DNA of 52,625 bases, from assembly GCA_947479815.1 (NCBI GenBank), contig CANKAT010000012.1, positions 1 through 52,625 of the forward strand. The letters run 5' to 3'. This DNA is from Sphingobacteriaceae bacterium. GTDB taxonomy: Bacteria; Bacteroidota; Bacteroidia; Sphingobacteriales; Sphingobacteriaceae. A program made the position numbers and the translations under genes. Under the pieces are notes generated by a model. The model was not told the DNA's origin. It searched no databases and worked only from the letters and a program-made list of their open reading frames with translations. This document shows positions 30,641-50,753 of the stretch, piece after piece; the first letter of the stretch is position 1, and every line of letters starts with the position of its first letter.

Positions 30641-31291
30641 ATGAAACGCCATCTAAGTATCATACCCGCATTATCGCTTATCCTAGTTTTATTTTCCTGT
30701 GATGCCATATCTCAGAAAAAAACTGATGTTAGAAAAGTGAAACTCACAGCACCTAAAGGAAAAGCCATTGCAGCTTTTGCTGAAGGATGTTTCTGGTGTT
30801 CAGAGCATATTTTTGAAGCAGTAATTGGTATAGACTCTGCTATTTCAGGATATGCCGGAGGTACAGTACCAGACCCAACCTATGCTTTAGTAAATACCGA
30901 AACAACCGGACATGCAGAAACAGTACTGGTTTACTATGATCCTAAAGTAATTTCATATTCGGAATTATGTAAGGTATTTTTTGCTTCCCATGACCCTACA
31001 ACTCCCAATCAGCAGGGGCCCGACCGGGGTTCATCTTACCGTTCCATATTATTTTATACCGGGCCAACAGAAAAATCGGCTGCTCAACAGGCTGTGAAAG
31101 ATATTACGAATTCCGGAAGGTTTAGAAAGTCACTAGTAACTGAATTAAAACCACTCATAGAATTCTACAGGGCAGAAGAATACCACCAGGATTATATCGA
31201 ACACAATCCAAACCAGGGTTATGTAAGGGCGGTTTCTATTCCACGATTTGAGTTGTTTAAGAAAACGTATAAGGGGAAACTTAAGTTGTAA
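30641..31291 (+). CDS. msrA: Peptide-methionine (S)-S-oxide reductase, lipoprotein
   Basis: MsrA repairs oxidised methionine. The nucleophile is Cys50 in AEGCFWCSE, with a possible resolving Cys53; the downstream TTGHAETVLV, DPTTPNQQGPDRGSSYRS and YHQDYIEHNP motifs are those of MsrA. An N-terminal signal peptide with lipobox LFSC (cysteine 20) places the enzyme in the envelope, where it would need an external thiol donor. Length 216 equals an MsrA core plus the leader. Its stop codon sits inside a heptamer repeat (31285-31312). No msrB is adjacent. Confidence 0.93.
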   Translation: MKRHLSIIPALSLILVLFSCDAISQKKTDVRKVKLTAPKGKAIAAFAEGCFWCSEHIFEAVIGIDSAISGYAGGTVPDPTYALVNTETTGHAETVLVYYDPKVISYSELCKVFFASHDPTTPNQQGPDRGSSYRSILFYTGPTEKSAAQQAVKDITNSGRFRKSLVTELKPLIEFYRAEEYHQDYIEHNPNQGYVRAVSIPRFELFKKTYKGKLKL

Positions 31292-31312
31292 GTAATAAGT
31301 TATAGGTTGTAG
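31285..31312 (+). repeat. Heptamer repeat over the msrA stop codon
   Basis: Four 7-base units (gttgtaa, gtaataa, gttatag, gttgtag). The msrA TAA is the end of the first unit. The same unit recurs at 38756-38804. Confidence 0.7.
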
Positions 31313-31427
31313 GTTTTCATTCATCTTTATCTGGAAATTAGAATAAAAACTGGAAATTTAATCGACAAATCAATTTGCTAATTATCTCATTTTCAAATTT
31401 GCTCAATCTATTATCTACCTTTACTAA

Positions 31428-38111: not shown

Positions 38112-38747
38112 ATGCGAAATTGGTTATTCCTTATTTTTGTGTTTTGTTCTCTTTCCGGGTTCTCCCAGGTTAGTGGCAAGAAGCTCGTGCAATTTTCAGG
38201 AATAATTATAAACCGCGACAGCAATACTGTGGTTCCATATGTAACCATTACCAATGTAACCGGTAGGGATCAGTTTTTTTCAGCCAACTATAAAGGTTAT
38301 TTTTCATTTGTTGCCAACGAAGGTGATACTTTGGTTTTTACTGCTGTTGGTTATAAGCGTGAAGGTCTTGTAATCCCAACAAATCTATCGGATGATAAGT
38401 ATACCATTCTGATGAAGATGCAGCAAGAGGTTATTAATCTACCTATGGTGCAGGTGTATCCTTGGGCAAGCACAGATGAATTCAAGAAAGAATTCATGAC
38501 TCTTAAATTCGCAGATGATGATCTTGAAATAGCCAAGAAGAATGTTTCACGTGAAAGCTTATCAGCCATGATGGCCAGCCTTCCAAGGGATGGCGCTGAA
38601 ATGCAAAGTTTTAATTTCCAGAATAATCATAACCGCCTGGTTAACAAGAATATCAATCAGCGTCTGGCCAATCCATTGCTGAATCCTTTTGCATGGGGAG
38701 CACTTATCCAACAGATTATGCAGGGTGATAGGAGTAGGGAGCAGTAA
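38112..38747 (+). CDS. Carboxypeptidase-D-like regulatory-domain protein, exported
   Basis: A 211-residue protein with a signal peptide (NWLFLIFVFCSLSGFSQ) and a CarboxypepD_reg-like beta-sandwich (about 28-110; FSGIIINRDSNTVVPYVTITNV, YFSFVANEGDTLVFTAVGYK). The C-terminal part is helical and Gln/Asn-rich with no recognised domain. Same design as the protein at 20071. I start it at ATG 38112 rather than TTG 38106 because the TTG lies inside a -7 box. Envelope function unknown. Its stop is followed 8 bases later by heptamer repeats. Confidence 0.78.
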   Translation: MRNWLFLIFVFCSLSGFSQVSGKKLVQFSGIIINRDSNTVVPYVTITNVTGRDQFFSANYKGYFSFVANEGDTLVFTAVGYKREGLVIPTNLSDDKYTILMKMQQEVINLPMVQVYPWASTDEFKKEFMTLKFADDDLEIAKKNVSRESLSAMMASLPRDGAEMQSFNFQNNHNRLVNKNINQRLANPLLNPFAWGALIQQIMQGDRSREQ

Positions 38748-38755
38748 GGGTTGGA

Positions 38756-38804
38756 GTTGTAAGTTGTAAGTTGTAAGTTATAGGTTGTAGGTTGTAGGTT
38801 GTAA
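38756..38804 (+). repeat. Seven tandem heptamers
   Basis: Seven consecutive 7-base units: gttgtaa three times, gttatag, gttgtag twice, gttgtaa. They start 9 bases past a stop codon. The same unit occurs at 31285-31312. Confidence 0.8.
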
Positions 38805-38846
38805 GTTTTAATTCTGCTGCAGATAAAAATTCTAAACAATCCTGGT

Positions 38847-44827: not shown

Positions 44828-45904
44828 TTAAATTGAATTTCCGTAGCCTACCAGAAGTACGGAAATAATAATAGTACTTATTCCTAAAATAAAAGTTGTG
44901 AATGTCTTCTTGCTCACTGCCGACCATTCCTTCAGTAGCAGTCCCCACATATTAGCGATCAAAATGATAAAAGCCATGTGTAATATCCACGAGCTAGCTC
45001 CATTTCCTAATTTACTTTCACCCATACCGTAAAAGAAGAACTGAAGAAACCAGGTTGTACCTGCTATAGCCGAGAAAATATAGTTTTTAACAAGCGGTGA
45101 TTTCGTGTTTGCATAATCTCCGAAGGTCTTATTACGAGCGTTCAGGATAGTACACCAAATTAGGTTTGTTGTAAGTCCTCCCCAAAGCAATACCACATAA
45201 GTTACATTATTTTGAAAGAGAAATTCAGTCGTTTCCGCAGGATTCGCTGCTTTCCACAACGTATTTGCCGCATCTGCCATTGGTTTTCCAGCTTCTATTC
45301 CAAAATTGAAACAGGCACTTAAAACTCCTGAAATAATGGCTACAATGAGCCCTTTAACCATATTAAACTCCTGTATAGTTTCTTTTTTTGTTTCTTCACT
45401 CAGTTCACGTTCTTTTAGCATTCCCGCTCTCCCACAAAGGAAAATACCGAAAAGGCATACCAGCACCCCAAGAAGTACGATACGTCCACCTTCACTGTTA
45501 AGCATGTCTGTAAAACTAGTCTTACCTGTTTGAGGATATAGATCGTAAAATACAGGGGGCAAGAGGGATCCTAATGCTGAACAGAATCCCAAAACTACTG
45601 AGTTGCCAAGCGACATGCCGAGGTATCTAACTCCAAGTCCGTAGGTTAAACCCCCAATCCCCCAAAGCAATCCCATAATAAAAGTAACCTTCAAAATGGA
45701 GTTATCCGTATTACTGATGATCTCGGCAAAAGCTGGAATAGTGAGGTATGCAGCTAGGGGAGGAACAATCAGCCAAGAGAATAAGCCACCAATTATCCAG
45801 TAGCTTTCCCATGACCAACCCTTAACCTTTTTAAAAGGAATATAAAAACTCCCGGAAGCAGCGCCGCCAATAAAATGAAAAATAACACCTAAAATTACTT
45901 GCAT
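44828..45904 (-). CDS. rhaT: L-rhamnose/H+ symporter
   Basis: Inner-membrane permease with about ten hydrophobic helices, 358 residues. It matches RhaT: GVIFHFIGGAASGSFYIPFKKVKGWSWESYW at the start and GLLWGIGGLTYGLGVRYLG in the third helix. First gene of the operon; six bases separate its stop from the fused aldolase gene. No sigma-factor or AraC-type regulator gene is found on either side, so control must come from elsewhere. Confidence 0.93.
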   Translation of the reverse strand: MQVILGVIFHFIGGAASGSFYIPFKKVKGWSWESYWIIGGLFSWLIVPPLAAYLTIPAFAEIISNTDNSILKVTFIMGLLWGIGGLTYGLGVRYLGMSLGNSVVLGFCSALGSLLPPVFYDLYPQTGKTSFTDMLNSEGGRIVLLGVLVCLFGIFLCGRAGMLKERELSEETKKETIQEFNMVKGLIVAIISGVLSACFNFGIEAGKPMADAANTLWKAANPAETTEFLFQNNVTYVVLLWGGLTTNLIWCTILNARNKTFGDYANTKSPLVKNYIFSAIAGTTWFLQFFFYGMGESKLGNGASSWILHMAFIILIANMWGLLLKEWSAVSKKTFTTFILGISTIIISVLLVGYGNSI

Positions 45905-45998
45905 GGATGAGATTTAAAAGAGTTTGAATATATCTAAAATATGGGATTTATTCGTTGTTGTTTATTGTTTTTTTTAAGGTGCTCCTGGTCACGTCGTA

Positions 45999-46119
45999 CC
46001 CCCGCGGCTATGAGCGGAAGAAAATCATGAATGGAATTAGCTAACTCCAGGCACAGGAGAATTTATATCAATCTTAAACCAATCGTTCATTCACTGAACC
46101 TCCGTTCACCTCTCTTCCG
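45999..46119 (+). repeat. 121-bp direct repeat, copy 1
   Basis: Opens with cccccgcggctatgagcgg and ends tctcttccg. Identical to copy 2 (46440-46560) except for one C/T difference. The upstream T-rich lead (45961-46000) also matches 46360-46398 imperfectly. Confidence 0.9.
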
Positions 46120-46407
46120 ATTTATTTTTTTAAAGCGCTGTGCACGTGTCATCTTGAACAACAGGCAGGGAATGCCGCGCAAAAGGTTTATGAATCTGAA
46201 GCACAATTTTTTTTGTCCGCCACGCTCGCTCCAAAGGAGTCCTACGGACACAGACCTTTAATAACCGTTTCTCCCGCCTTGACTGGTGCGGCAATTACTT
46301 AATTAGCCAACCCACTGTATTCATAGCAGCAGGCGCAGCGGTAGGATTATTCGCTATTTTTTATTGTTTTTTAAAGGTACTCATGGTCTCGTCGTACCGC
46401 CTCGGCA

Positions 46408-46459
46408 TGGTTCTTTTTTGCTACAGAAAAAGAACTAAGCCCCCGCGGCTATGAGCGGA
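46408..46459 (+). repeat. 52-bp hairpin module, copy 1
   Basis: Contains a stem formed by gttcttttt and aaaaagaac (46410-46435) and runs into the start of the second 121-bp copy. Identical 52 bases at 46635-46686. Confidence 0.85.
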
Positions 46460-46560
46460 AGAAAATCATGAATGGAATTAGCTAACTTCAGGCACAGGAG
46501 AATTTATATCAATCTTAAACCAATCGTTCATTCACTGAACCTCCGTTCACCTCTCTTCCG
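46440..46560 (+). repeat. 121-bp direct repeat, copy 2
   Basis: Second copy, 441 bp downstream of the first. A third partial copy of its first 20 bases closes the second 52-bp module at 46667-46686. Confidence 0.9.
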
Positions 46561-46634
46561 CATTGACTGGTGCGGCAATTACAGACCCAGCCCCCGCAGA
46601 ACCTTTCATAGCAGCAGGCGCAGCGGTAGCGTTT

Positions 46635-46686
46635 TGGTTCTTTTTTGCTACAGAAAAAGAACTAAGCCCCCGCGGCTATGAGCGGA
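46635..46686 (+). repeat. 52-bp hairpin module, copy 2
   Basis: Exact duplicate of 46408-46459 at a 227-bp offset, including the gttcttttt/aaaaagaac hairpin. Confidence 0.85.
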
Positions 46687-46762
46687 GTGAAATTATGAAT
46701 GCTTGGTGGGTAACACCAAGCATAAGGGAATACAGCACTAAAATCACAAACCCTTATAAACG

Positions 46763-46791
46763 AAAAAACCTCCCGAATGATATTCGGGAGG
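46763..46791 (-). terminator. Intrinsic terminator for rplS
   Basis: Perfect 10-bp stem cctcccgaat/attcgggagg (46769-46778, 46782-46791) with a 3-base loop, followed on the minus strand by six T. Ends the rpsP-to-rplS transcript. Confidence 0.9.
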
Positions 46792-46809
46792 CTAAATCTT
46801 ATTAATTAA

Positions 46810-47157
46810 TTACACTCTTTTTGTTTTGATACGAGCTGCCTTACCAGTTAACTCGCGTAGATAGAATAATTTCGCTCTGCGAACTTTTCCATGACTATTT
46901 ACTTCGATCTTATCAATGTTCGGAGAATTTACTGGGAAGATACGCTCTACTCCAACTCCATTTGACATTTTACGAACTGTAAACGTTTCATTAACACCTA
47001 CACTATTGCGCTGGATAACAACACCCTGATAAATCTGGATACGTTCTTTATTTCCTTCGCGAATTTTATAGTGAACACTAACCGTATCACCGGCTTTGAA
47101 TGCAGGAACTTGCTTTATAACTACCGCCTGCTCTTCAACAAATTTTACTAAATCCAT
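46810..47157 (-). CDS. rplS: 50S ribosomal protein L19
   Basis: bL19, located at the 30S-50S interface. 115 residues with the family core ([66 protein letters not shown]). Last gene of the rpsP cluster, 139 bases after trmD. Its leader contains a 9-bp hairpin (47176-47198), and a strong terminator follows. Confidence 0.97.
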
Positions 47158-47175
47158 GATATTAAGCTCTTAATT

Positions 47176-47198
47176 CGATTTTTAGCCCGTAAAAATCG
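47176..47198 (-). promoter_or_regulatory. Hairpin in the rplS leader
   Basis: Perfect 9-bp stem (cgattttta/taaaaatcg) with a 5-base loop, 18 bases upstream of the rplS start. It has no T-run, so it is more likely an RNA-level control structure than a terminator. I recall that an L19 leader class has been predicted in Flavobacteria, but cannot confirm that this is one. Confidence 0.45.
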
Positions 47199-47296
47199 GA
47201 TTGCAATATTAGGAAAAATATTTTACTTAAAAAAGGATTTTAGATAATTTCCCCATTAAAATTTCTTGCAAGTACAAGTTACCACAAATATTTATA

Positions 47297-47971
47297 CTAA
47301 TCCAAAAGATCTGGTCGCCGCTGCTTTGTGCGCTCCAGAGCCTGCTCGTGTCTCCAATCATTAATCGCTGCCTCATGTCCACTTAAAAGGATATCGGGCA
47401 CCCTATGGCCCCGCCAGTCGGCCGGACGTGTATATACTGGTGCGTCAAGAAGTTCCCCTTGAAAAGAATCTGATAATGCCGAGGTTTCATCATTCAACAC
47501 TCCCGGTAATAATCTGACAATACTATCAACTAGAACCGCTGCCGGTAATTCACCTCCCGAAAGAACATAATCGCCTATAGAGATCTCTCTGGTTACAAAA
47601 ATATCGCGAATACGCTGATCGATTCCTTTATAATGCCCGGCAAGGATCATGATGTTTTCTTTTCCTGATAGCTCATTGGCCATACTCTGATTAAGCGTTT
47701 TCCCATCAGGTGTCATAAAGATCACCTCGTCGTATTTACGCTCTTCCAGTAATTTTTCGATACAATTTGCAAAAGGCTCAATCCCCATCACCATACCACT
47801 GCCTCCACCATACTGATAATCATCAACAGATTTCTGTTTATTTGTTGAGTAATCTCTCAGATTATGAACAACGATCTCTGAAAGCCCTTTTTTCTGCGCA
47901 CGTTGCAAGATAGAATGTGCAAAAGGACTCTCAAGCAAGTCAGGTAATACAGTTATGATATCAAAACGCAT
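47297..47971 (-). CDS. trmD: tRNA (guanine-37-N1)-methyltransferase
   Basis: SPOUT-class enzyme that methylates G37 of tRNAs reading CNN codons and prevents frameshifts. Starts [17 protein letters not shown]; the trefoil-knot SAM site follows ([28 protein letters not shown]) and the C-terminal [21 protein letters not shown]-like end is present. I begin it at ATG 47971 (224 residues). A longer in-frame start at 48058 runs through a repeat tract and upstream of the promoter box (47976-47983) and is unlikely. Confidence 0.95.
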
Positions 47972-47987: not shown

Positions 47988-48042
47988 GGAGATATGAGAT
48001 ATGAGTAGTGAGATGGGAGATATGAGATGAGAGATATGAGAC
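47988..48042 (-). repeat. Purine-rich tandem tract upstream of trmD
   Basis: Irregular repeats of gagatatgagat-type units directly upstream of the trmD promoter box. Confidence 0.6.
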
Positions 48043-50018: not shown

Positions 50019-50753
50019 TTACTCTGCCGTTTCGTCAGATGGAGCTTCTTCAGATGCTTCTTCTTCAGTTGCTTCTTCAGCCACTTCAACTTCTGCAGGA
50101 GCTTCTTCTTGAACTTCTGGAGCTTCTTCAGCTACTTCAACTTCTGCAACTGGTGCTTCTTCTTCAACCTCAACTTCTGGAACTTCTTCAGCTACAGTTT
50201 CTTCAACTTCAGCAACCGATTCTGATTCTTCAACTTCTGCCGAAACTTCAACTTCCGAAGTTTCTTCAACTACAGCTTCTTCAACTTCTTCAGAAGGAGT
50301 ATTTTTGACAATAATTGCTGCCGCCATTTCTTCCTTCTTCTTAGCTTCAGCTAATAAAGTAGCTTTTTTAATTTCTTGTTTAGATTTAGAAAGAATTTCC
50401 TTCTTTCCTTCAATCTTAATGGCTTTTCCTTCTAACCACTGAGCAAATTTTGCTTCTGCTTGTTCTTCAGTTAAAGCACCTTTTTTAACGCCACCTTCTA
50501 GATGTTTCTTGTATAAAATACCTTTGTATGAAAGTATAGCACGACAAGTATCTGTAGGTTGAGCGCCTTTGTTAACCCAATCCAATGCTTTTTCGAAATT
50601 GATTTCAATTGTAGCCGGATTTGTGTTTGGATTGTAAGAACCTAATCTTTCGATGAATTTACCATCTCTTGGAGCACGAGCGTCTGCTACCACTACATGA
50701 TAAAAAGGTTTTCCCTTTTTACCGAATCTTTGCAATCTGATTTTAGTTGCCAT
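50019..50753 (-). CDS. rpsP: 30S ribosomal protein S16 with acidic C-terminal tail
   Basis: bS16 is an early 30S assembly protein. Residues 1-80 are the conserved domain ([41 protein letters not shown]). Next comes a Bacteroidota-type helical extension (about 95-150). Residues 154-244 form a tail of 91 residues with about 40 Glu, one Asp and no Lys or Arg, made of E, V, A, P and S repeats. Usual S16 is 80-90 residues. The tail is far too acidic to lie on rRNA and should project from the ribosome. A TATCTTTG box upstream (50806-50813) drives the operon. Confidence 0.96.

Follow-up and report, generated by a model that had tools for sequence, protein, structure and literature searches.

A non-coding repeat mosaic between rhaT and rplS

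The intergenic region between the rhaT-like and rplS genes of the window (the whole 52,625-bp stretch of DNA analysed) holds a hairpin-rich block of repeated modules, which we designate by letters (Table 1). The ORF listing gave no credible gene inside the block (45942-46730), as the initial annotation had stated. The one ORF of at least 80 amino acids that overlaps it (46563-46805) has a TTG start and falls where copies of the repeat differ by indels.

Table 1. Modules of the repeat block and flanking genes, with positions in the window.
Feature	Position	Strand	Remarks
Repeat mosaic, whole	45942-46730 (approx.)	+	Module order C'-E-A-G1-G2-Q-G3-B-C-D-E-A-B-D-E-F; flanked by rhaT and rplS
Cassette C copy, diverged and truncated	45948-45998	+	Fused straight to E, without hairpin D
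121-bp unit, copy 1	45999-46119	+	Modules E and A
Modules G1-G2-Q-G3	46120-46270	+	Middle part of the full-length element
Module Q	46229-46249	+	Two tiny palindromes, CTCCAAAGGAG/TCCTACGGA
Module B, copy 1, and CCGC..GCGG hairpin ahead of B	46274-46344	+	Contains the conserved linker CATAGCAGCAGGCGCAGCGG
Cassette C, 59 bp, optional	46349-46407	+	Presence or absence varies at orthologous copies elsewhere
Core D-E, copy 1 (hairpins D and E)	46408-46458	+	R1 model, 77.7 bits
121-bp unit, copy 2	46440-46560	+	Modules E and A; differs from copy 1 at one base
Module B, copy 2, and hairpin ahead of B	46558-46632	+	Short form, without cassette C
Core D-E, copy 2	46635-46685	+	R1 model, 77.7 bits
Module F, terminal palindrome GCTTGGTGGGTAACACCAAGC	46700-46722	+	G003 and G004 have an E-F variant at their orthologous site
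rhaT-like neighbour gene	44828-45904	-	Start codon 38 bp from the block
rplS neighbour gene, ribosomal protein L19-like (by eye)	46810-47157	-	Gene end 80 bp from the block

The initial annotation had also described five duplicated units in the block. The two 121-bp copies are indeed 99% alike with a single difference, and the 25-bp copies (46320-46344 and 46605-46629) match at 100%. The 52-bp copies (46408-46459 and 46635-46686) are identical by reading and sit within a 67-nt family, the two being 94% alike over 67 nt. Each contains the hairpin that had been noted (GGTTCTTTTT.../AAAAAGAAC), together with a short CCGC/GCGG hairpin. The 18-bp unit is present twice, as claimed, but as part of a larger 29-nt pair (46270-46298 and 46554-46582, 93%). 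The two 40-bp segments (45969-46008 and 46367-46406) are similar, but at 85% they are not clean copies, which is the one correction to the initial annotation.

Distribution of the repeat family

Searching the host genome (3.2 Mb in 157 contigs) with a 770-bp query from the block returned 74 matches, and such a number for one query places the repeats far beyond chance. A structure model of the D-E core (R1) identified at least 48 copies in the same genome (150 of 2546 candidates scored). Within the genus, R1 matched 17 of the 20 genomes and DNA searches matched 15, the host included in both counts. DNA matches extended to 51 of the 201 genomes of the family, in 8 of its 25 genera; the repeats lie dispersed in intergenic DNA of Pedobacter and its relatives. 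Across a sample of the phylum, R1 matched 6 of 296 genomes, all six from the same family and the host among them; this search used stricter filters and scored 20 candidates per genome, so weak members elsewhere may have been missed. The initial annotation had considered a mobile or functional element unlikely if the units were unique to this spot and varied freely in related strains; the searches of the genome and its relatives, which it had suggested, found that they are not unique.

The conserved 20-base linker of module B (CATAGCAGCAGGCGCAGCGG) is recognisable across the genus. It was found in 32 stretches of a named genome collection, 29 of them from two metagenome-assembled genomes (MAGs) called Pedobacter schmidteae. 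The other three stretches (L090 from Dyella, L100 from an alphaproteobacterium, and L114) have no core match and are probably chance matches. Among the entries listed, our searches of the literature returned no description of this repeat family; most subscription papers were outside their scope, and we do not claim that the family is unpublished.

Mirrored arms of the full unit

In relatives, the modules form a full, non-coding unit of 0.45-0.8 kb with mirrored arms and a middle part. Short, multi-copy and lacking a credible ORF, it resembles a miniature inverted-repeat transposable element (MITE) in these respects. Each arm is composed, from the outside inwards, of hairpin E, hairpin D, the optional cassette C and module B, and the same two hairpins (E and D) mark each end. 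Hairpin E was outermost and D next to it in a table of 20 elements (18 from relatives and two from the host; 40 ends), and R1 matched both ends of the 18 elements from relatives. Hairpin D was interrupted at one end by an insert in L033 and L188 and by cassette H in L192 and L037. Many of the tabulated regions had been chosen for their pairs, so the phylum search provides a less biased count: among the 41 matches listed from genomes other than the host, 12 pairs lay within 900 bp of each other, eight as (-)(+), none as (+)(-) and four on the same strand. A locus from another genus (L083) has two (+)(-) pairs 122 bp apart and one (-)(+) pair. The interior (Bp-J1-J2-G2-G3-B) can be aligned between two host elements and the G015-G019 group; in G014 (L035), the right part of the element alone matches. 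Some of the G015-G019 copies (e.g., L193:1538-2332) appear to have inverted ends of about 16 bp (CCAATGTCATTATTTA, by eye), a type of end that we did not find in the form carried by the window's lineage.

The host genome presents a different picture of neighbouring cores. Its 18 pairs within 900 bp (at least 28 bits) comprise 13 on the same strand, two (-)(+) and three (+)(-). The left arm (Dp) is common there, mostly without its E, which accompanies it in a few islands (L060, L063 and L068), and the right arms are tandemly repeated. Because most neighbouring cores of this genome are in tandem, the window copy is a rearranged and truncated mosaic. The host assembly is a draft of 157 contigs with many islands at contig ends, and some arrangements could therefore be mis-assembled. 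An inverted pair of cores 4.1 kb apart in G068 was considered as a candidate autonomous element and rejected: the ORFs between the cores look ordinary by eye, and we interpret the pair as two separate islands.

Module grammar and optional cassettes

Annotation of 36 host blocks with 20 hand-made module strings revealed a grammar in which G2-Q-G3 or A leads to B, an optional C, D (with an optional H) and E. After E comes mostly A, which restarts the cycle, or F. The long form is preceded upstream by Dp-Bp-J1-J2, and some of the 36 blocks deviate from the grammar as fragments or because they contain other repeats. The duplications in the window follow this ordinary syntax, the 121-bp pair being E and A used twice and the 52-bp pair D and E used twice. 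With dispersed intergenic copies, distinct modules in variable combinations and a module number that varies at orthologous sites, the family has the properties of a composite repeat.

Three optional cassettes (C, 59 bp; H, a 28-bp hairpin; and P, a 16-bp palindrome) are gained or lost at fixed places. We aligned orthologous islands in 12 cases, matching 11 host islands to the P. schmidteae MAGs. Cassette C was a discrete indel of 59-60 bp in five of these alignments, in both directions, and H was a 28-bp indel in the loop of hairpin D in four. P sits in the loop of the CCGC/GCGG hairpin ahead of B and was a discrete indel in L054/L095 (twice), L056/L115 and L060/L094. At a thirteenth orthologous site, C is present in the host and absent from G004. 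The set of 12 alignments is uninformative on empty sites because the MAG loci were mostly fetched for holding the repeat.

Copies of the short and long forms are equally alike. In 65 copies, 54 of them from the host's own clade, similarity within a clade was 0.927 for the same form and 0.928 for different forms; across clades, it was 0.836 and 0.832, respectively. Hence, cassette C does not define a subfamily; with or without it, copies resemble each other more within a lineage than between lineages. The core set for sequence comparisons excluded L031, L032, L045 and L046, as their two source MAGs also supplied L084-L115. Out of 135 core matches, 133 were used for the B-containing alignments A2 and A3, from which 45 without a recognisable B were excluded; after duplicates had been merged and over-long sequences removed, 33 and 32 sequences remained.

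Empty, filled and rearranged orthologous sites

Near species were found to differ at orthologous sites: these could be empty or filled, and the islands in them shorter, longer or inverted. At one such site, a 1.1-kb nest carried by G016 (L193) is missing from G015, G006 and G017, where 14-44 bp separate the flank matches; the site holds the nest in G018 and other sequence in G009 and G019. Three of six sister genomes thus have an empty site. A host island of about 0.6 kb (L066) is missing in G003 and present without C in G004, a difference that is partly rearrangement because it includes a segment matching another place in G003. The islands L067 (host) and L088 (P. schmidteae MAG) are inverted relative to each other over at least 130 bp. 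Neither of two empty sites had a clean target duplication for the mirrored-arm element, nesting and a larger rearrangement blurring them.

The site of the window's own block also differs between species. The E-F end variant beside rplS recurs in G003 and G004. In the rplS stretches of 14 of the 16 other genomes (G007, G008 and G012 were not part of this comparison), the sequence beside rplS differs and no core occurs in the stretch covered; one of the 14, G013, has a mirrored core pair about 1.5 kb from rplS. The family also marks a place of gene-order difference between species, as at rplS.

Two further arrangements were observed at these loci. In L193 (1410-2450), the hairpin element lies inside another MITE-like repeat, whose inverted ends are TGTCAGGTAAAAAT (by eye); two families are nested here. 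In L066, the segment next to the island, at about 2293-2511, matches two separate places about 0.9 kb apart in both G003 (C319) and G010 (C12), which would fit the relocation of a gene region to L066 with loss of its middle.

A sister-clade form with the ends of an insertion sequence

In a sister clade, the B-D part is carried by a MITE about 0.36-0.4 kb long, with ends similar to ACTNNTGTCCGGTTAAAATA. This end pattern had 10 to 21 matches in five genomes of the clade, versus 0 or 1 for the reversed control, and 2 versus 0 in G017; the end motif was looked up in L250-L255. The same ends, inverted, surround a 401-amino acid transposase with DDE_Tnp_1 and DUF4372 domains (Pfam) in an insertion sequence (IS) of G006 (C20; L249:390-1783), which we take to be IS4-type. 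The IS is bordered by 10-bp direct repeats that agree at 10 of 10 bases by eye; those of the sister-clade MITE agree at 9 of 10 bases at one copy and are ill-defined at another, also by eye. Transposition of one sister-clade form is therefore well supported, and we infer that the window's form was once transposed as well.

Relatives of the G006 transposase occur in three of the 20 genomes of the genus, and none was detected in the host at an E value of 1e-10. The sister-clade end pattern occurs once in the host, with one mismatch, versus one match of the reversed control. With no match to the protein and the end pattern at control level, the G006 element does not explain the window's copies, and we rejected it as their mover.

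Origin of the repeats

We consider it probable that the block belongs to a lineage-wide family of composite, hairpin-rich, non-coding dispersed repeats that had a MITE-like origin and are now BOX- or BIME-like, shaped by past transposition and recombinational reshuffling. The many dispersed copies, the mirrored ends in relatives and the empty orthologous sites support the suggestion in the initial annotation of a non-autonomous dispersed element. Units would have spread by transposition in trans, for which the sister-clade form that shares its ends with an IS is the most direct support. In the window's lineage, this phase may be over, or the enzyme may have been lost or escaped detection. Unequal recombination and gene conversion, running through the modules E, B and D that dispersed or adjacent copies share, could have produced near-identical duplications such as those of the block, and larger rearrangements may occasionally have occurred at islands. 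Recombination between copies is something we infer by reading the end states of the sequences. Overall, the repeats have the look of decayed mobile DNA and not of a switch that controls a neighbouring gene.

A different mobile repeat system could in principle operate throughout the Sphingobacteriaceae. Its ends (hairpins E and D) would be recognised by their structure and not their sequence, with the stem of D free to change so long as it stays paired; elements would grow as palindromic cassettes nest in hairpin loops, as H and P do, and a putative enzyme other than RAYT would act on extruded or single-stranded hairpins, moving the unit and targeting loops. We regard such a system as unlikely.

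Quite unlikely, in our estimate, is a REP/REPIN system, in which hairpin ends are bound as single strands by a RAYT (Y1 HUH) transposase and inverted pairs move as units. The inverted hairpin pairs that form the unit in relatives, the compensatory change in a stem (see below) and the intergenic placement are all features that such a system would have, and Bacteroidetes have a RAYT subclass of their own (2.6) with 'atypical secondary structures' flanking the genes (PMC6006769). Y1 genes also occur near some of the repeats, at about 1.7 kb from a core in G005 (C96), about 5 kb from a core in G004 (C20) and about 2.2 kb from a B-D unit in G006 (C63); the two cores are outside the stretches fetched for the locus search. 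Yet three tests left mobilisation by RAYT unsupported. The host genome has no Y1_Tnp match despite its 48 reported cores, and the domain is present in 10 of the 15 genomes with DNA matches versus three of the five without. No core was detected by profile at 20 Y1 loci (from 36 places, with up to 1.5 kb on each side), which contained just chance-level words of 16-20 bp. Nor did the structure model find one at these loci, its best match scoring 14.4 bits (E 0.063). Furthermore, the 450-730 bp between cores and the differing end sequences are unlike those of REPINs.

Compensatory change in hairpin D

Alignment A1 was built from the 52 distinct sequences among the 135 core matches. Of these, 51 were aligned; L054:11162-11203 was left out because part of its E is deleted. 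Across 13 pairs, the 51 D-E sequences contained 51 cells with double changes, 49 in D and two in E. The shuffled alignments gave 15.6 ± 2.9 (none of 500 reached 51) and the slid controls at most eight; the slid control is the safer of the two because related sequences can inflate the result of the shuffle test. Hairpin D is therefore kept by compensatory change. Further pair types showed no excess (12 versus 11.7 in shuffles). The pair at columns 7-28, in D, fails to form in 27 of the 51 rows, indicating that D is often imperfect. A long stem between B and E, seen in folds, had no double changes and was discarded as unsupported.

A DNA hairpin would be expected to covary just as much as an RNA. 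A structured non-coding RNA, with the hairpins of B, D and E under selection as part of an island transcript, would account for the covariation in D and for a linker that is recognisable throughout the genus. Both strands of one copy also fold more stably than shuffled sequences (z -3.06 and -4.31), the folding energy being below that of shuffles for both strands as RNA and for one as DNA. However, module number, order and orientation vary between orthologous sites, the loop of D is interrupted by H in some copies, and no Rfam family matched at its gathering score in positions 45000-47300 of the window. We thus consider an RNA gene family very unlikely. Five Rfam matches below the gathering score, obtained at a permissive threshold, were judged to be chance.

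Position relative to neighbouring genes

Twenty islands with ORFs on both sides lay between convergent (5), divergent (5) and tandem (10) genes, the proportions of random placement. This speaks against a role as terminator or promoter tied to a neighbour. Neighbours were called by a simple ORF rule that ignored ORFs mostly inside a block; the right neighbour of L067 is a doubtful 81-amino acid ORF, and L080 was left out of the count because it has no E module. The initial annotation had also proposed that the block is control DNA for rhaT, next to whose start codon it lies, but the same modules at many other intergenic places and in all gene orientations, and the lack of a core in the stretch covered beside rplS in most of the other genomes compared, make local control of the rhamnose transporter gene or of rplS extremely unlikely.

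Comparison with known repeat systems

The closest parallels are with repeats of other bacteria. The BOX elements of Streptococcus have the structure boxA-boxB(n)-boxC with tandem boxB modules, and their ends are similar to those of a candidate helper IS (PMC3049150). They share with the Pedobacter family a composite intergenic architecture, a number of modules that can differ from strain to strain at a given site, predicted stem-loops, a slow present spread and insertion of repeats in one another (PMC3049150). The mirrored arms in relatives, the alternative module paths and the cassettes in hairpin loops set the Pedobacter family apart from BOX. Neisserial intergenic mosaic elements (NIMEs) are likewise mosaic and are called composite (PMC3049150).

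REPINs and BIMEs, like the Pedobacter repeats, are units of paired, inverted hairpins that show compensatory change, extragenic spread and clusters (PMC3116915, PMC6006769, PMC3733652). The Pedobacter family differs in that it has two hairpins per end, a unit of 450-800 bp, no RAYT in the host and, at the fetched loci, none linked to a core within 1.5 kb. The BrickBuilt MITE of Porphyromonas gingivalis is also intergenic and non-coding, with a length that varies between strains at a site and ends that are often lost; it varies by a 23-nt repeat and has IS5-family-like ends (PMC4596501). The Pedobacter family differs from BrickBuilt in varying by different cassettes, in having hairpins as arms and in sharing, in its sister-clade form, the ends of a DDE_Tnp_1/DUF4372 IS.

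The family is of a known kind; what is unusual about it are its mirrored two-hairpin ends and the nesting of cassettes within the loops of hairpins. The double-hairpin elements of fungal mitochondrial DNA also bring palindromes together with other palindromes, but they are organellar, and we know of no link between them and the Pedobacter family.

What was an odd intergenic block is now a described family of repeats, with a grammar, the structural model R1 and orthologous on/off sites. It allows a test of whether gene conversion or cassette insertion changes composite bacterial repeats, and it provides Sphingobacteriaceae genomes with a repeat family for masking or typing.

Other repeats and genes

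Several other repeats were met during the analysis. A short repeat resembling TAAGTTGTAAGTTATAGG occurs in the window at 31282-31315 and 38746-38810, in tandem at the second place, and matches other loci of the host. A short stretch upstream of a trmD-like gene (about 47989-48041) has many matches of 80-90% in most genomes of the group. Outside the window, L040 contains a further dispersed repeat (about 640-960) with many matches in G006, G015, G016 and G017, and a repeat of the type GTCATTGCGAGC...GAAGCAATC adjoins an island in L074 (about 2650-2740). The window also encodes a ribosomal protein S16-like ORF (50019-50753, by eye) with a long, acidic and repetitive C-terminal tail.
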